Assembly: GCF_017814435.1 (NCBI RefSeq)
Contig: NZ_JAGJCB010000006.1
Span: 1-64,000, forward strand
Reading direction: 5' to 3'
Origin: Mariniflexile gromovii
GTDB taxonomy: Bacteria; Bacteroidota; Bacteroidia; Flavobacteriales; Flavobacteriaceae
Length of the DNA stretch: 64,000 nucleotides
Shown: positions 4,333 through 59,579 of the stretch, in pieces
Numbering within the stretch: position 1 is the first letter of the stretch
Layout: every line of letters starts with the position of its first letter
Made by a program: the position numbers and the translations under genes
The notes under the pieces: model-generated
Told to the model about the DNA's origin: nothing
The model's database searches: none
Seen by the model: the letters and a program-made list of their open reading frames with translations, nothing else

Positions 4333-6783
4333 TTAAAAGTTATCGACATTTAAAATTACTTTAACCGACCGAAAATCTTTTACATTCAAGAAGCTATTAT
4401 TTATTTTAATGATAGCTTCTTTTGTTTTTGATAAAGATTGCTTTTTAGGAATTTTTACCAATATGTTTTTATAAAACTGATTTCTAATTCTAGCAATAGG
4501 TGGCGATTCTGGTCCTAAAACATTATCTCCAAACACATTACGAAGCGATTTGGCATACCAAACGGAAGCCGTATCTACCCTACTAAAATCTTTATGCTTT
4601 AAAGTTATTTTTATTTGCTTATAAACCGGGGGATATTTGTAATTATAACGATCATTCATTTGTTCGTTATACATATCTATATAATTATTGGTAGAAACTT
4701 GCTGTAATATATTATGGTGCGGATTATAGGTTTGAATTAATACTTTCCCGCGTTCTTCAGTACGTCCCGCCCTACCCGATACTTGCAACATGAGCTGAAA
4801 ACTACGTTCGTGCGCTCTAAAATCGGGGAAGTTCAGCATGTTATCAGCATTCATAATACCAACCAACTTTACATTTCTAAAATCCAAGCCTTTAGTTAAC
4901 ATTTGGGTTCCTACCAAAATATCAATTTCTTGTTGTTCTAATGCCGTAATAATTTTTTCGTAACCATATTTTCCGCGCGTGGTGTCTAAATCCATCCTTG
5001 CAACTTTGTAATCTGGAAATAACAATGTAACCTCGGCCTCTATTTGTTCGGTTCCAAAACCTTTATTATCCAATTCCGGACTTCCGCAAGCTTTACAGGT
5101 TTTCGGCATCACTTCAACAAACCCACAATAATGACAGCGTAATTGGTCGCGATATTGATGGTAAGTTAAACTCACATCGCAATTAGGGCACTGCGGTGAA
5201 TGCCCACAGGTATGACATTCTACAATGGGTGAAAACCCGCGTCGGTTTTGAAACAGTATAATTTGATGGCCGTCGCGCAAAGCCTCCGTCATTTCTTCAA
5301 TAAGTCGGTCGCTAAAATGCCCTTTCATCTGTTTCTTTTTTAGCTTATCTTTAATATCGACCAATTCAATATCGGGCATTAAAACATCATTAAAGCGCTT
5401 GGTTATTTCAACAAAGCCGTATTTATTCTGTTTCGCATTAAAAAAACTTTCCAAACTGGGGGTTGCCGAACCTAAAAGCGTTTTCGCTTCGTGTATATGT
5501 GCCAAAACAACAGCGGTATCGCGTGCATGGTAACGCGGTGCTGGGTCGAATTGTTTGAAAGACTGTTCGTGCTCTTCGTCTACAATAATCAATCCTAAAC
5601 TATGGAATGGCAAAAATATAGAAGAACGTGCGCCTAAAACTATTTGCGCTTTCGCGGAATTGTTTAACACATTATTCCAAACCTCAACACGTTCATGCGA
5701 CGAATATTTAGAATGGAACACTGCCACCTGTTCGCCAAAATAATTTTGTAAACGGGTAATTAGTTGTGCTGTTAATGCTATTTCTGGTAATAAATACAAC
5801 ACTTGTTGCCCTTTATTTAAAACGTCTTCAATAAGTTTTACATATACTTCGGTTTTACCAGAAGATGTTACACCATGAAGCAACACCACAGATTGTTCTT
5901 TAAACGATTCCTTAATTTCGGTTAATGCTATGTTTTGATATTCGTTTAAGTTTTTAGAATCTTCATTCTCATCACCCGAATACTGAACTCGATCGGTTTG
6001 AATAAAATATTCCTCAAGAATGCCTTTATCTATTAATGATTTTATAATGGCTGGGGAAGCATCGCTTTCCTTTGATAAATCGGCTACTTTTACAGGTTTT
6101 TTCGTTGTTGCCGAAATAGAAAATAAGGTTAAAATAACTTGATGCTGTTTGGGTGCCCGACTTAAATCTTCCAACAGTTTTTGAAGCGATGATTCCGATG
6201 TAAAGTTTGTGTGCAGCTTTACATATCTAACTAATTTTGGTTTGTATTTTTCATACACTTCTTCTTCTACTGAAATAGCTTCTTTTTCAATCAACCGTTT
6301 AATAACGGGAAGCACATTTTTTTTATCGAGAATATTGGAAATATCATGGATTTTCAAAGACGATTGATGTTGCAAGGCTTCATAAACCAAAAACTCATCA
6401 TCTTTCAATATAGATTCATCTATAATTTTACTGTGTTTGGTAATAACCGTTTCGCTCTCTAAAATAAATGCGTTTGGTAAGGCTGCTCGCATCACATCTC
6501 CTAAGGTACACATGTAATAATTCGCAATCCATTGCCATAATTGCAATTGCTTTTCGTTAACAATTGGACCCTCATCTAATATTTGATGAATTTCTTTAGC
6601 TTCATAGGTTGTTGGTGGACTATTATGAATTTTAGCCACAATACCCGTGTAAATTTTCGATTTTCCGAAAGGCACAGATACGCGCATACCCGGTTGTAAA
6701 AATTCAGATTCAGCTATTGTAATGCTATAAGTAAACAACTTTTGAAGTGGTACGGGTATAATGACGTCTATAAAATTTGGCAT
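4333..6783 (-). CDS. priA: Primosomal protein N' (replication restart helicase PriA)
   Basis: PriA recognises stalled or repaired forks and starts replisome reloading. The 816-residue protein has the N-terminal DNA-binding domain, Walker A (GVTSSGKTE, about residue 307), the DEEH box, helicase motifs including SATPSLES and QVSGRAGR, and a zinc-binding block of four cysteine pairs (CHTCGHSPQCPNC through CKACG, about 520-565). Length is normal. I chose the ATG at 6783 (MPNFIDVIIPVPL) over a TTG two codons upstream. A TAnnTTTG box lies only 3 bases upstream of this ATG, which suggests an almost leaderless message. Confidence 0.97.
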   Translation of the reverse strand: MPNFIDVIIPVPLQKLFTYSITIAESEFLQPGMRVSVPFGKSKIYTGIVAKIHNSPPTTYEAKEIHQILDEGPIVNEKQLQLWQWIANYYMCTLGDVMRAALPNAFILESETVITKHSKIIDESILKDDEFLVYEALQHQSSLKIHDISNILDKKNVLPVIKRLIEKEAISVEEEVYEKYKPKLVRYVKLHTNFTSESSLQKLLEDLSRAPKQHQVILTLFSISATTKKPVKVADLSKESDASPAIIKSLIDKGILEEYFIQTDRVQYSGDENEDSKNLNEYQNIALTEIKESFKEQSVVLLHGVTSSGKTEVYVKLIEDVLNKGQQVLYLLPEIALTAQLITRLQNYFGEQVAVFHSKYSSHERVEVWNNVLNNSAKAQIVLGARSSIFLPFHSLGLIIVDEEHEQSFKQFDPAPRYHARDTAVVLAHIHEAKTLLGSATPSLESFFNAKQNKYGFVEITKRFNDVLMPDIELVDIKDKLKKKQMKGHFSDRLIEEMTEALRDGHQIILFQNRRGFSPIVECHTCGHSPQCPNCDVSLTYHQYRDQLRCHYCGFVEVMPKTCKACGSPELDNKGFGTEQIEAEVTLLFPDYKVARMDLDTTRGKYGYEKIITALEQQEIDILVGTQMLTKGLDFRNVKLVGIMNADNMLNFPDFRAHERSFQLMLQVSGRAGRTEERGKVLIQTYNPHHNILQQVSTNNYIDMYNEQMNDRYNYKYPPVYKQIKITLKHKDFSRVDTASVWYAKSLRNVFGDNVLGPESPPIARIRNQFYKNILVKIPKKQSLSKTKEAIIKINNSFLNVKDFRSVKVILNVDNF

Positions 6784-41332: not shown

Positions 41333-43624
41333 TTATTTCTTTATTACTCTTTTTACTGAGGATCCATTTGCTGTTTTAACTTTCATAAAATACATACCCG
41401 AAGCCAAACTAGACAAATCTATTTGAGTAGTAAATTTGCTATTTAATAAAACACTTCCTGTAATATTAAATACTGTAATATCAATAATATCTTCTAAACC
41501 ACTAAAAGAAACTAAACCACTTGTTGGGTTAGGATAAATACTAAAACCTAATTTTTTTTCTAAACTATTGGTGCTTAATGTTGCACGATCTAAAATTGTC
41601 ATATCACTCCAAATTGGTGCTGCCTTGTAAGCAGGTATATTAGCAACATCTGTATATACTGTCATATTTGATGCAGTTCCGGCCCACCCTGAATTAATAA
41701 CTGGAGGCACAGCCCCGTCCATAATAAGGGTTCTTACACTAGATGTAAGCCATGAATTTGCTAAAAAATCTGTAAGGGATGCTGGAACTGTTAATGTTGT
41801 CATAGCAGGACAATTTGTAAAGATACGATCAGGAATTTGAAGAAGATTCTGTGAAAGCGTAACAGATTGTAATGTTGAACAACCATTGAAGACACTACCA
41901 CCCAATGTTGTTACTGTATTAGGAATAACTATAGAGGTTAAAGACTTATTATCGTAAAATGCTTGACCTCCTATTGTTACTAAACCATCTGAAAGCGTAT
42001 AACTTTCAACTTTCTCAGCGGCACGAAAGGTACGAAATCCAATGTCAGTTACAGAAGCAGGAATACTGATACTAGTTACATCATTTTTCATCTCAGGAAG
42101 ATAAATTCCATTAAAAGAACTTTCACCTGTACCTACTACCGTGAATTGTGTAGAAAAGCCATTTGCTGTACCAGGAAGCACCAAATCTCCAGAAACTGCT
42201 AAACTTCCTGCTTTGTTTCTTGCTGCAATCATAACTGTTTTTGTTACTGGGTCAATTATTTGAAATGTATAAAGGCCATCATCAAATTGGTCTCCTGCAA
42301 AATAACCAACTCCTTCTCTCAGCTTATAATAAAACATATTAGACCAATTTTGCAGACCATAGGGTTGACCATATATACTCCCTCCATCTTGTAATGTTGG
42401 AGTATATGATTCTTGTAATGAGTCTGCTGTATCATCAAAATAAGTATACATAGACATGGTGGCATCACTATCTCTTAAATTTCCACTCCCATTAACCGTA
42501 CTGCCTGAGTATACAATTTCAACTTTATCTGTTAAATCTGTATTACATGTTATTTGCACCTGATTACCACCTATAATTTCAACCGAATTAATAGTAACTA
42601 TTGAATTATTGTTATAGACTACAAATCCATAATTAGTTTGCATAGGCGTAGTCCATGTATCTAAAACCAAAGGAGGAACTGGTACATCATAATCTATGGT
42701 AATCTTATTTCCACTAATATCAAAATTTATTGGTTTTAATGTTTTCGCAGGGCTATCGTTTACCAATTCTGATATTAATGATTTTGACATTAATTCACCA
42801 AACCACCTATATCCGTTTGTTGACAAATGTCCATAACCATAGTCGGACATAGCGTAATGTGGATTTAGAAGTACAACATCACTATTCTCTTCTGCAAATT
42901 CAATTTGAGCCATAACAATGGGGAGTTCCTTAATTCTAACGTAACTTCCACTTGTTTGATAAATGAAGAATAATGGTTTCTCTGTCTGTCCATATTTCGA
43001 CATAATATCAGCCTGCATATTGTTTTTAAGTTTTAATAATAACTCTTTATATACCCCTTTATCTTGAGTTCCATTTGTACCAGGAGTTAATCCTTGACCA
43101 TAAGCAGCACTTGGCACAGCGTTATACTCTCCTTGCATATATATAATTGCTGGACAAGAGACTGTTTGACCATTTATTGCTGCTAACGTATTATCTAATG
43201 ATTCAATAAAAGTTGAGTCATAATAACCATCATTCGTACATTCTTTAGAAAGTCTTTCAATAGTTCTACCTCCTTCACCTGCTGATACTGCTATGAATTT
43301 CTGATTTGCATTAATCTTATCTCTATAGGCTTCAGAATAAGCATTTAAACAACTAACAATAGGCTGCTCCCCACCTTTTGACCACTTTTTAGCAACTAAT
43401 GGATTTAAAGTAGTATTTTCAGTACTATACAATGTATTTACGTTGGTGCCCATCATATAATTATTATCCAAAGCAATATCTGTAATCGCTCGAGGTGCTT
43501 GCCATCCTAAGCCCAAAGATTGTCCGTACAATACTACTTGAATATAATCAGTACTCTGTGCAAATAAACTGGTAAATTGATAGCTTAGTAAATAAAATGC
43601 TATTAATAAATAAATTTTTCTCAT
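41333..43624 (-). CDS. Secreted SASA/SGNH-type esterase with BspA leucine-rich repeats and T9SS domain
   Basis: A 763-residue exported protein. After the signal peptide (ends LFAQ), a sialate O-acetylesterase-like SGNH domain (about 25-280) has LYGQSLGLGW (nucleophile Ser), YMQGEYNA (the QGE block) and GHLSTNGYRW (His block). A beta-rich linker is followed by BspA-type leucine-rich repeats (about 505-650: TSISIPASVTDIGFRTF, LVTIGGQAFYDNKSL) and a T9SS sorting domain (FSIYPNPTSG ... SSVKRVIKK). It probably removes acetyl or similar esters from a polysaccharide at the cell surface. The repeats may bind glycan or cell wall. Confidence 0.82.
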   Translation of the reverse strand: MRKIYLLIAFYLLSYQFTSLFAQSTDYIQVVLYGQSLGLGWQAPRAITDIALDNNYMMGTNVNTLYSTENTTLNPLVAKKWSKGGEQPIVSCLNAYSEAYRDKINANQKFIAVSAGEGGRTIERLSKECTNDGYYDSTFIESLDNTLAAINGQTVSCPAIIYMQGEYNAVPSAAYGQGLTPGTNGTQDKGVYKELLLKLKNNMQADIMSKYGQTEKPLFFIYQTSGSYVRIKELPIVMAQIEFAEENSDVVLLNPHYAMSDYGYGHLSTNGYRWFGELMSKSLISELVNDSPAKTLKPINFDISGNKITIDYDVPVPPLVLDTWTTPMQTNYGFVVYNNNSIVTINSVEIIGGNQVQITCNTDLTDKVEIVYSGSTVNGSGNLRDSDATMSMYTYFDDTADSLQESYTPTLQDGGSIYGQPYGLQNWSNMFYYKLREGVGYFAGDQFDDGLYTFQIIDPVTKTVMIAARNKAGSLAVSGDLVLPGTANGFSTQFTVVGTGESSFNGIYLPEMKNDVTSISIPASVTDIGFRTFRAAEKVESYTLSDGLVTIGGQAFYDNKSLTSIVIPNTVTTLGGSVFNGCSTLQSVTLSQNLLQIPDRIFTNCPAMTTLTVPASLTDFLANSWLTSSVRTLIMDGAVPPVINSGWAGTASNMTVYTDVANIPAYKAAPIWSDMTILDRATLSTNSLEKKLGFSIYPNPTSGLVSFSGLEDIIDITVFNITGSVLLNSKFTTQIDLSSLASGMYFMKVKTANGSSVKRVIKK

Positions 43625-43805: not shown

Positions 43806-44153
43806 TGTTAATACCTCGCTTTAACCTAACATCTACATTATTATCATCTAGATATGACATTAATTCTTTCATAGAATTCACTACGTTTTGTTTCTTTTCC
43901 TACTCCGTGGGTGATAGAATCTTCAAAACAAATATTTTTTTGATTTAGTTTTAAAAGTTGATGTTCTTTTAAAAACAAAACACATATTGGCTATAAAACG
44001 ATATCCTAAAGCCGTTGGATGCAAACCATCTTTCTTTCCAATATTATCTCCTTTCCTAAAAAAGATATCTTGATTGTGCAGCGATAAGTTTAATACTTTT
44101 AATACGTTATATAAATCGTAAAAATGTACTTTGTTTTCAGAAATTAAAACCAT
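43806..44153 (-). pseudogene. Decayed copy of a beta-helix/SGNH gene pair (SGNH C-part followed by beta-helix N-part)
   Basis: On the minus strand the first 230 bases encode VHFYDLYNVLKVLNLSLHNQD and DGLHPTALGYRFIA, matching the SGNH domain of the 46673-48679 gene; in a shifted frame the text continues FLKEHQLLKLNQK, CFEDSITHGVG (GDS became EDS). The last 80 bases encode NSMKELMSYLDDNNVDVRLK, matching the N-terminus of the beta-helix paralog at 58627-59579. Frameshifts and joined ends show a deletion scar of a tandem array. It keeps the permuted order DxxHP then GDS-like, so that order predates the duplication. Confidence 0.82.
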
Positions 44154-44304
44154 TGCAATTTTATGAAGGTCTTCTTTTTTTGTTTATTATCTCTCTAAAT
44201 AAACTTTTATTAAACCGTGAAAATAAAAACACACTATCTTTAGTAATGATTAGAGCAATCAACAAACATAACATGTTAATGATTATATATTTCATCATTT
44301 AACA

Positions 44305-46672: not shown

Positions 46673-48679
46673 CTATATGATAATTAACTCATCCAAATAT
46701 GTTGGGTAATTTGCTCCTTCTCCACCACCTCGGGTAATAGAATCTCCAAAACAAATAATTTTTTGATTGGGCTTTAATAGTTGATGAGCTTTTAAAAAGT
46801 AATGTACATTTTGGGCAATAAACCTATATCCTAGCGCTGTTGGATGCACACCATCTTTCTTGCCACTATTCTTTTCATTCCTAATAAGCATATCCTGATT
46901 GTGTAAAGGCAAGTTTAGTGCTTTAAATTCTGCATTCAAATCGTAAAAATGTACGTTGTTTTCAGCCGCTAAGGTTTTAACAATTTTACCAACGGCATCT
47001 ATTTTTTTATTTGGTGTTTCTGAAAACAAGTTTTTATCATGTCTTGCAAACAAGTAGGCACTATCAGCAGGAATGGGACTCATTAAAACCAACTCGCTAC
47101 CATTGGCTTTAATTTTTTTAATTAAGGTTTCTAAATTGGAAGTATAAGTTTTATAATCAATCATTTTATTGGAATTCAACATATCGTTGGTACCCACCAT
47201 CATGATGACTAAATCTGGTTTCTTTGCTATAACATCTTTATCAACTCGTTTCAGCAAATCGTTGGTGGAATTCCCTCCAACACCTGCATTTATAACTTTC
47301 TTATCTTCCTTCTTATTAGTAACTGTACAATTCACAGTCAAATCGTTTAACCTAACAGGCATTCCTGTATAGTTAAAAAGCTGAATATTTTTAGCCCCAG
47401 CATAAGTACCACTAGGTTTATCTGGATTTCTATAGCGATGTACATCATCCCAAAACGATTCCCCAAACACTATGGGAGATTCTACACTACGTTTCTTGTT
47501 TTGATAATTACGAATGGTAATGTGATGCCCCGAACCATTAATTTCTGCTAAGCGTGATACTTCGTACTCGCTAACGGTATCCACCAATTCTAAATCGATT
47601 TTACAGTTTTTCACATTATTTACAACAAATGTTATTAATGGTCCATATAAAGCATCGCCTTTAGAATTCTCAATAACTCCATCTGTCCCTATGGAATACC
47701 CTTTTTCCTGACACCCTATTGCTGTAGACCCAACAATTTTAGTTGGAGGTAAATTGGCACTTAAATCGAAACCGGAGCGCATATTTTTTACCGTACAATT
47801 AATAACGGTTACACCTTGTGTTCGTCTACCGTTCAAACCACCTGACGGATAGGTTCTAATACCATCTTCAGACAATGATTTAATTTCATTGGGTAGAATT
47901 TTCCCCGGAGGGTAATCACTTTTAAAACCTACACTAAATGCTGGTCCGGATGTTTCCGCTAACATCTCGTTAGTAGCTTTCATTTTTCCTTCTACATAAC
48001 AATCTTTCAACAAAGTATTTACTGCGCCTTGCATAAAAATTCCATGTCCAAATGCATGACTTACCACTTTGCACCCTAATAATTTTGTGTTGGTTCCTTC
48101 CACCAACAAAACGGAATGCTTTTGAGTTTTCACCAAGGCATTTCCTCCTTTTCCCAATAAATGCCCATAACCATAAGGATAAGAACCATGTACAAACAAA
48201 TCGGCATTCTTAATGGTGTTATCATCGCCCATAACGCGCAACATTTGTACGCGGTTGGCGGGTACATGATTTCCAAGGTCTTTTCCTTTTAAACCTTCAA
48301 TGTAATTGCCATTACCACTTACCAAAAATTCGCTAAACTCACTTTTCGGATAGTTATTATGCAAGGCGCCATCAATATTTAAAGTCACTCCTGTTAAAAA
48401 ATATTGACTGTTATTTCCTAAAAAATGAATGAGAGACCCAATGCTAAAATCGCCTTTCTTCTCATTATTTTCACCATATTTAAAAACACTTAATTTGCCT
48501 ATTTTAATGGAATTAATATTGTATTCACCTGGTTTCATTTTAACCAACACATTACTCTTTTTGGCGTATTCAGCTAATTTTTCGACAGAATTTATAAAAA
48601 TAGTATCACGAGAATTTTCTTTAGCGTGTACTAAAAATACAGCCATCATTAAACATATTAGACTAATAGTTTTTTTCAT
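46673..48679 (-). CDS. Right-handed beta-helix protein fused to a circularly permuted SGNH esterase
   Basis: A 668-residue exported protein (signal peptide, residues 1-19). Residues about 25-455 are a parallel beta-helix with the paralog-family signature: MKPGEYNI, GSYPYGYGHLLGKG, QKHSVLLV, FGHGIFMQ, YVEGKMKATNEML, AETSGPAF and SEDGIRTY. Residues about 461-668 are an SGNH hydrolase in unusual order: block II-like NAGVGGNST, block III GTND (about 496), block V DGVHP (Asp609, His612), and only then block I FGDSITRG (Ser647). All parts of a 200-residue SGNH unit are present. I infer a bifunctional polysaccharide-active enzyme and esterase. Confidence 0.85.
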   Translation of the reverse strand: MKKTISLICLMMAVFLVHAKENSRDTIFINSVEKLAEYAKKSNVLVKMKPGEYNINSIKIGKLSVFKYGENNEKKGDFSIGSLIHFLGNNSQYFLTGVTLNIDGALHNNYPKSEFSEFLVSGNGNYIEGLKGKDLGNHVPANRVQMLRVMGDDNTIKNADLFVHGSYPYGYGHLLGKGGNALVKTQKHSVLLVEGTNTKLLGCKVVSHAFGHGIFMQGAVNTLLKDCYVEGKMKATNEMLAETSGPAFSVGFKSDYPPGKILPNEIKSLSEDGIRTYPSGGLNGRRTQGVTVINCTVKNMRSGFDLSANLPPTKIVGSTAIGCQEKGYSIGTDGVIENSKGDALYGPLITFVVNNVKNCKIDLELVDTVSEYEVSRLAEINGSGHHITIRNYQNKKRSVESPIVFGESFWDDVHRYRNPDKPSGTYAGAKNIQLFNYTGMPVRLNDLTVNCTVTNKKEDKKVINAGVGGNSTNDLLKRVDKDVIAKKPDLVIMMVGTNDMLNSNKMIDYKTYTSNLETLIKKIKANGSELVLMSPIPADSAYLFARHDKNLFSETPNKKIDAVGKIVKTLAAENNVHFYDLNAEFKALNLPLHNQDMLIRNEKNSGKKDGVHPTALGYRFIAQNVHYFLKAHQLLKPNQKIICFGDSITRGGGEGANYPTYLDELIII

Positions 48680-58626: not shown

Positions 58627-59579
58627 TTATTTTTTTTCAAATACATTGTTTTTACCTAAATCTTGAGATAATTCTCCGTTAGAAACCACTATGTTATTTT
58701 CTGATAGTTCCTTAAAAACTATAGGCATACCTGTTAGGTTATGCCTTCTTCACCTAAACACATCATATAGCCTTTAGGCAATTTGTAACCGAACACTGTA
58801 TTGAAATCTACCTTATCAGCATCAGATCCTGTTCCTTTTTCGGTCCACATATCATCTGTGGAACGCATAACACCTTCAATGTAGCATCCTTCTATAATTG
58901 GCCAATCGGCTGCCTGCATAAACAAGGCATGACCATATGAACGATGAATAATGGTATCATTTTTAGCGTGATTTTTATAACCTCTTACCAAAAACGAGGA
59001 ATGTTTTCTGTGGTTAATGACACTCTTTCCTCCTTTTCCGAAAGCTTCTCCATAACCATAAGGATAAGAACCTCTGGTTGTGATATGAAAGCCTTCAATT
59101 CTGTTCTCTGAACCATCCATAACAATATTGGTAGCACGCCTTGTTGGCGCATCGTGAACGGAACCATCATCAACAATGGTCAGGTTTTTTAATACATTCT
59201 TGTTGCCTGTTATTTGTATCTCGTACAGTTCGGTGTTTTTACTTGTGAAAGCACTTAGCACTTCCGTTTTAACGTTGATGGTTACACCTGAAAAATCATA
59301 AACACTGTTTTTTCCTGAAAAAAGGAAAAGTACGTTCGCATGGTTTTTAACTACCGTAGCACTTGAAAAATCGCCATTATGGATATCTTTAGCGGTAATG
59401 GTGTAAGTGCCTGGTTTTAATTTAACTTCTACGTTATTATCATCTAGATACGGCATTAATTCAGTTAGAGAACTTACTGTGATTTGCGCTTGGGTTTTTA
59501 AACCAAGCAAAGCTAGTAACCCTATCAAAAGAAAACGGTTTTGAAGCTTAGAAAAGCATGTGTTTTGAATATGCAACAT
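58627..59579 (-). pseudogene. Right-handed beta-helix paralog with internal deletion and premature stop
   Basis: An ORF of 281 residues with signal peptide (ends TQA) and the family signature (GSYPYGYGEAFGKG, RKHSSFLV, YGHALFMQ, YIEGVMRSTDDM, GEEGI) stops abruptly at GIT. In another frame the sequence directly continues as NLTGMPIVFKELS ... NVFEKK and a stop at 58627-58629. NxTGMP is the C-terminal motif of the intact paralogs, so roughly 150 codons were deleted and the frame was broken. A shortened, still-folded product cannot be fully excluded. Confidence 0.8.

Follow-up and report, generated by a model that had tools for sequence, protein, structure and literature searches.

The window analysed here is a stretch of 64,000 nucleotides of Mariniflexile gromovii DNA (Flavobacteriaceae; contig NZ_JAGJCB010000006.1, positions 1 to 64,000). 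An open reading frame at 46673-48679 on its reverse strand encodes a protein of 668 amino acids in which an FdlA-like beta-helix precedes a circularly permuted SGNH domain, and the same layout recurs in loci L040-L047. The right-handed beta-helix domain, a relative of the fucoidan lyase FdlA by phmmer comparison with 7xzf_A, spans residues 25-455 (47315-48607, reverse strand). The SGNH domain takes up residues 460-668 (46676-47302, reverse strand), as delimited by Pfam, the block positions, a structural model and searches with a de-permuted sequence. In the Pfam scan of the whole protein, a beta-helix was matched at residues 185-332 and Lipase_GDSL_2 at residues 459-619, the latter over profile positions 32-177 of 178. 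The fusion to a beta-helix had been proposed in an earlier, sequence-only reading of the window and is borne out by this SGNH match and by an FdlA match at residues 25-475.

SGNH hydrolases are a well-studied enzyme fold. The block residues of the superfamily (GDS, G, GxND and DxxH, providing Ser, Gly, Asn and His with Asp) are all present in the C-terminal domain, arranged in the order G, N, D-H, S instead of the usual S, G, N, D-H. Block II, NAGVGGN with Gly466 and Gly469, leads the permuted order from residue 464 (47270-47290); it is followed by block III, GTND with Asn498, from residue 496 (47183-47194), and by block V, DGVHP with Asp609 and His612, from residue 609 (46841-46855), all three being placed on the reverse strand by sequence and alignment. 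A new linker at residues 632-640 (46760-46786, reverse strand), recognized from the secondary structure of the model, bridges the former C-terminal helix and the former strand 1. Block I, FGDSITRG with the putative nucleophile Ser647, closes the permuted order at 46727-46750 on the same strand, as located by sequence, alignment and model strand 190-194. The GDSIT motif begins at residue 645 and occurs only once in the 668-aa protein, with Ser647 standing 21 residues from the C-terminus. Because the Lipase_GDSL_2 match starts at profile position 32, the first block is absent from the front of the domain. Ordinary SGNH proteins have the chain order S-G-N-H; with its G-N-H-S order the domain was filed as a permuted relative rather than an ordinary member. 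Both the block order and the C-terminal position of GDS had been given exactly in the sequence-only reading, all blocks being located in the 668-aa frame. An assembly or reading-frame artefact was ruled out by the identical layout in other genomes.

Moving the tail to the front of the domain extended the Lipase_GDSL_2 match to profile positions 1-177 of 178 at 101.9 bits, as against positions 33-177 at 90.3 bits for the domain in its native order. The solved structure 7ddy was matched over chain positions 25-216 at 68.6 bits by the rearranged query, which was one residue shorter, versus positions 61-216 at 61.8 bits by the native one. When a profile of the permuted family was compared with PDB chains, tail-only matches fell on N-termini (4rw0 at 3-19, 4tx1 at 11-51), and no best stretch spanned core and tail together among the 50 distinct sequences listed. 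AlphaFold2 prediction of the permuted domain from a 46-row alignment with no templates gave a mean pLDDT of 94.8 and a pTM of 0.91. The predicted model has the alpha/beta/alpha SGNH fold with five strands (11-15, 39-43, 78-82, 126-128 and 190-194) and helices between them. Strand 190-194, which runs into the GDS block, is taken to lie in the sheet of the model because DSSP calls strands by bonding to their neighbours, and with this strand in the sheet the cut would therefore separate helix 1 from strand 2 of the usual fold. Structure prediction had been named beforehand as a check, a GDS block unable to reach DGVHP counting against the permutation; the model points the other way.

Foldseek searches with the domain model returned GDSL-type esterases, thioesterases and similar proteins, or designed scaffolds also matching by sequence, among the 50 matches listed of 1788. 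The TM scores of these 50 matches, 0.40-0.62 by query length, are modest as expected, because a sequential aligner cannot place the rotated piece. Among the matches listed by sequence and by Foldseek, the nearest solved relatives of the core are esterase-type: 7ddy (AlAXEase), 1yzf, 3p94 and Axe2 (3w7v). The full-length model of the 668-aa protein, built from nine rows, was poor (pLDDT 51.8, pTM 0.36) and is uninformative on the domain arrangement. Circular permutation, the central claim of the sequence-only reading, is upheld by the de-permuted match, the conserved order in relatives and the fold of the model, and the domain as modelled is a true SGNH hydrolase, circularly permuted and able to fold.

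The block order of homologs, likewise suggested as a check, was compared in genome contigs, which were scanned with two peptide patterns built around KPDLVIMM and GTNDMLN. The scan returned 48 loci, 45 of them with full-span matches that were all permuted and three with partial, weak matches in normal order; as the scan was keyed on two core peptides, 45 of 48 is not an unbiased share. GDS follows DGxH and GTND precedes it in all 45 full-span loci. The letters GNS also occur before GTND in five standalone proteins, where on inspection they are part of block II. Residues G466, G469, N498, D609, H612, G645, D646 and S647 are invariant in all 46 aligned rows. Standalone proteins of 214-280 aa account for 37 of the 45 loci and beta-helix fusions of 658-674 aa for eight. 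The eight fused proteins (L040-L047), which come from named genomes, are 77-86% identical to the window protein. Orthologues in two genomes of the window's genus have the same layout (86 and 83% identity), and one same-genus genome also carries a standalone permuted protein of 249 aa, 57% identical, whose start was judged by eye to be lipoprotein-like. Locus L128 (4007-5500, reverse strand) encodes a 497-aa protein with a diverged core (121 bits), in which an N-terminal permuted SGNH domain is followed by other sequence and a T9SS sorting domain; as the domain is N-terminal here, the GDS block marks where the domain itself stops rather than where a gene was truncated.

HMM classification of the ORFs in the retrieved loci, with a tail threshold of 3 bits and some genes counted twice, covered 134 ORFs, of which 66 were permuted, 49 normal and 19 without a tail call and hence in neither order. 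Core scores were at least 121 bits in the permuted ORFs and at most 81 bits in the others. Block I flanked the core on both sides in none of the 134 (19 undecided). All three parts of the nine fused genes are under constraint: their median pairwise dN/dS was 0.064 for the helix, 0.085 for the core and 0.143 for the GDS tail, from 36, 29 and 24 usable pairs of 36, respectively, and with dS near saturation (means 1.4-1.7); the tail value, the highest of the three parts, is based on few codons (27). Genomes were sampled evenly for the surveys and few candidates were scored in each, for which reason the counts are lower bounds. A full-span permuted match was present in at least 4 of the 395 genomes surveyed in the window's phylum, counting the window's own (E <= 1e-15), and in at least 1 of 295 genomes of its class, namely its own (E <= 1e-25); the family survey of 397 genomes gave at least 13 full-junction places, spread over 12 of them. 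Plasmids gave no tblastn match at 1e-15.

The permuted domain is also found in a second phylum. Two MAGs, L083 (Kiritimatiellota) and L084 (Victivallis), were among the first set of loci, and the Victivallis genome has three full-span permuted matches. By a hand count of matches from profile positions <=10 to >=218 with E <= 1e-22, a full-span permuted match is present in at least 38 of the 387 genomes drawn from the Victivallis phylum, the two seed genomes included. The permuted family looks commoner there, because only 4 of the 395 genomes surveyed in the window's phylum were full-span. Some of the Victivallis-phylum matches lie inside open frames of 800-1800 codons. The second-phylum set comprised 32 loci and 31 ORFs above the core threshold (L158 was dropped), two of which are the L083 and L084 genes again. 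Block I stands solely after the core in 30 of these 31 ORFs, the remaining one being ended by a stop. None of the 31 has block I on both sides, many of the long ORFs running past the locus ends. As far as the retrieved stretches reach, tandem normal-order pairs mimicking a permuted match in the long proteins are ruled out, as block I precedes the core in 0 of 31. In a Pfam scan of ten proteins, CBM_4_9 and DUF6259 were among the partners of the permuted domain. In L162, L163, L164, L167, L173, L176, L178, L181 and L182 the permuted SGNH domain stands at the N-terminus of an open frame of roughly 800-1200 codons; the partners include DUF6259 in L162, L167, L173 and L178, the four that were scanned, and CBM_4_9 as well in one. 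In another second-phylum gene (L180, 1501-2166, reverse strand), block I reads GNSIT for GDSIT and the Ser is retained.

The neighbours of the fused gene in the window encode GH95, GH97, an FAD oxidoreductase, a sodium:solute symporter, a DUF5060 protein, an alginate-lyase-like protein with CBM6 and further FdlA-like beta-helices. Clusters of neighbouring genes around the 45 loci were named after the Pfam match of a single representative; among the commonest are FAD oxidoreductase (23 loci), sulfatase (14), GH95 (7), SASA esterase (7) and GH88 (5). The representatives of two clusters of 10 loci had no Pfam match, and two clusters of 9 loci are presumably SusC-like and SusD-like. Judged by gene content, the permuted-gene loci look like polysaccharide-degrading clusters. 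Two further reverse-strand genes of the window were observed. The one at 58734-59579 encodes 281 aa that match only residues 24-274 of the query helix (33%) and have no Pfam match; it is a truncated or decayed lyase beside longer ones. The one at 41333-43624 combines an acetylesterase-like N-terminus, with a GQS motif identified by reading, with a BspA-type LRR and a T9SS tail found by Pfam.

In the proposed mechanism, Ser647 would be activated by His612 and Asp609, and the glycines of block II together with Asn498 would help build the oxyanion hole. The SGNH domain would strip O-acetyl or similar acyl groups from a uronic-acid-containing polysaccharide of the fucan type, and the beta-helix would cleave the same chain by beta-elimination. 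Unmasking and cleavage would then be performed by a single enzyme with cooperating domains, putatively exported to judge by signal peptides assessed by eye. Sequence comparison and gene context suggest that the permuted domain is most likely an O-acetylesterase acting on the polysaccharide cut by the lyase domain, with the acyl group and the polysaccharide both putative. It is rather unlikely that the domain, with its fold intact, is no esterase and instead binds acyl groups or works as an acetyltransferase like the permuted AlgX and PatB1. The permuted SGNH-like proteins AlgJ, AlgX, PatB1 and WssI are indeed O-acetyltransferases in the available text of the published descriptions (PMC9487903, PMC10302187). 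However, the block III Asn and DxxH are kept in the window domain, as opposed to Tyr and DxH in AlgX and AlgJ, the loci with their sulfatase, GH95 and GH88 genes look degradative, and the nearest solved relatives are of the esterase type.

For the permutation itself, a single event long ago is proposed, with the founder of the family giving rise to standalone proteins and to modules of larger ones. The cut would lie between the first helix and the second strand, making the chain begin at strand 2 and continue through blocks II, III and V; a short linker from the old C-terminal helix would then lead to strand 1, the GDS nucleophile and helix 1 at the chain end. In a quick core-only tree of 108 rows, long normal-order branches fell among the permuted rows, which formed no single clade; when the 52 permuted rows were constrained to one group, the likelihood exceeded that of the free search by 61 units (p-AU 0.956). 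In another tree, of 90 rows, the second-phylum rows lie mostly together, and the outgroup does not lie on one side because two rows of normal order, on a branch of 2.77, are placed among the permuted ones. A single origin of the permutation is preferred, not proven. Neither the tail and core scores nor the trees, given the short tail and the long branches, single out a particular normal-order family as the parent.

A chimera that took its core from one SGNH gene and block I from another, rather than one rotated gene, is improbable. The best non-permuted matches of the tail (up to 37 bits), in a group that we take to be TesA-like, mostly belong to proteins with cores below the core threshold, and the best normal-order cores (81 bits) are found in a different group. 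The tail match is nevertheless weak at telling parents apart, because the tail spans only some 35 residues and block I is highly conserved throughout. Tandem duplication followed by loss of the outer ends, the route put forward in the sequence-only reading, finds no support, as no intermediate was present among the 134 and 31 ORFs classified. A normal-order SGNH gene just upstream would have spoken against the permutation; in none of the 45 loci does a second SGNH gene adjoin the permuted gene (genes of at least 200 aa). Another diverged SGNH-like ORF lies elsewhere in the retrieved stretch in nine of the 45, two in normal order and seven undecided.

A decayed, frameshifted partial copy of the permuted domain with unchanged block order is located at 43887-44238 on the reverse strand of the window (blastn 3e-56) and is identical to the domain in 261 of 356 aligned DNA columns (73%). 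It had earlier been placed at 43806-44153; its existence and its permuted order hold, and its extent has been revised to the somewhat longer interval. The permutation was rightly judged older than this local duplication, and by far, because it is common to standalone and differently fused proteins in two phyla. It is scarcely credible that the fused gene is a truncated tandem pair, with a first SGNH domain lacking its front, a second reduced to its front, and a decaying, inactive product of accidental order, for although this copy lies 2.4 kb away and the gene stops 19 codons past GDSIT, the layout is common to 45 of 48 loci with invariant block positions and low dN/dS, standalone and N-terminal versions exist, a monomer fold is predicted with high confidence, and no ORF has block I on both sides. 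As a general account, a truncated tandem gene is ruled out by the conserved standalone and N-terminal members.

Residues 25-475 match FdlA chain 18-454 (7xzf_A) with a phmmer E of 1.6e-67. According to the available text of its description, FdlA performs beta-elimination on fucoidan with carboxylated sugars, and its activity was nearly abolished by mutation of D137, K141, H176, F179, E236, R240 or Y242 (PMC9410043). Six of these seven positions, hand-mapped on the phmmer alignment, are identical in the window protein (K177, H212, F215, E271, R275 and Y277); D137 is not kept, H173 being found instead. His173 and five of the six kept positions are invariant in the nine fused proteins, and F215 varies. 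In the 90-row tree the fused rows form one clade (100/97) nested in standalone Bacteroidota rows. On the sequence evidence, the permutation did not arise in the beta-helix fusion, which is later. A fused gene of Arcticibacter (Sphingobacteriaceae; L041, 4651-6627, forward strand) is 82% identical to the window protein over the full length; its presence among Flavobacteriaceae genes suggests transfer between families.

A beta-helix gene (at least 200 aa, E <= 1e-10, within the retrieved stretch) occurs near the standalone permuted gene in just two of the 37 standalone loci, L065 and L060, and in both it is adjacent. In Algibacter miyuki (L065, 4427-6648, forward strand), a 488-aa beta-helix gene, 54% identical to the window helix, ends at about 5893 and the standalone permuted gene starts at 5893, the gene order being that of the fusion; the group to which this locus belongs branches close to the fused clade, though it is weakly supported there (83/71). 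The helix gene of L060 lies downstream of the standalone permuted gene (31%). Such adjacent pairs make the merging of neighbouring genes a plausible path to fusion, and in the window clade a single fusion would have attached the permuted module to an FdlA-like beta-helix lyase whose gene was probably a neighbour. A permuted SGNH hydrolase with one old permutation, one later lyase fusion and a proposed deacetylase-lyase action is very probably the best explanation of the locus. Somewhat less firmly, we favour the full scenario in which one ancient rotation between blocks I and II led to a large, undescribed branch of active SGNH esterases in Bacteroidota and, more commonly, in the Victivallis phylum, a single later fusion giving rise to a deacetylase-lyase.

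Circular permutation is known in SGNH-like O-acetyltransferases, namely AlgX, AlgJ, WssI and PatB1 (DHHW), and the published permuted proteins have the order H-S-G-N, H-S-G-Y or H-S-G-D in the available text of the sources (PMC9487903, PMC4148444, PMC10302187). A further source mentions the permutation of AlgX, AlgJ and PatB1, the order not being given in its available text (PMC5697884). The window domain resembles these four proteins in its SGNH-like fold, rotated blocks, predicted Ser-His-Asp triad and presumed carbohydrate acyl chemistry. In contrast, they are cut before block V, whereas the window domain is cut between blocks I and II (G-N-H-S); their motifs are DxH or DHHW with a changed block I, and most lack the Asn of block III, whereas the window domain has GDSI, GTND and DGVH. 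They are also biosynthetic transferases, unlike the window family with its degradative-looking loci. Membership of the AlgX / DHHW family is ruled out by the G-N-H-S order and the DGVH and GTND motifs. The acetylxylan esterases AlAXEase (7ddy) and Axe2 (3w7v), the acylhydrolase 1yzf and Lipase_GDSL_2 are similar to the core by sequence and Foldseek matches; in the solved esterases the match to the core starts 38-61 residues into the chain, with room for block I ahead, and there is no fused lyase. FdlA of Flavobacterium sp. SA-0082 (7xzf) has a homologous beta-helix, and the available text of its description makes no mention of an SGNH domain (PMC9410043).

SGNH proteins with the G-N-H-S order were not found in the literature searched, in which few subscription papers were within reach. 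Block I is easily overlooked in such proteins, because Pfam sees GDSL lipases with a missing front. The permuted family looks like a real branch, hitherto undescribed, of a well-known group of enzymes. The permuted members found in publications are acetyltransferases with a single type of cut, and here a second cut point is combined with canonical hydrolase motifs. This second cut point is conserved across dozens of genomes and is a natural experiment on the separability of chain order and catalysis. The fusion in turn proposes a single enzyme that would both deacetylate and cut brown-algal polysaccharide.
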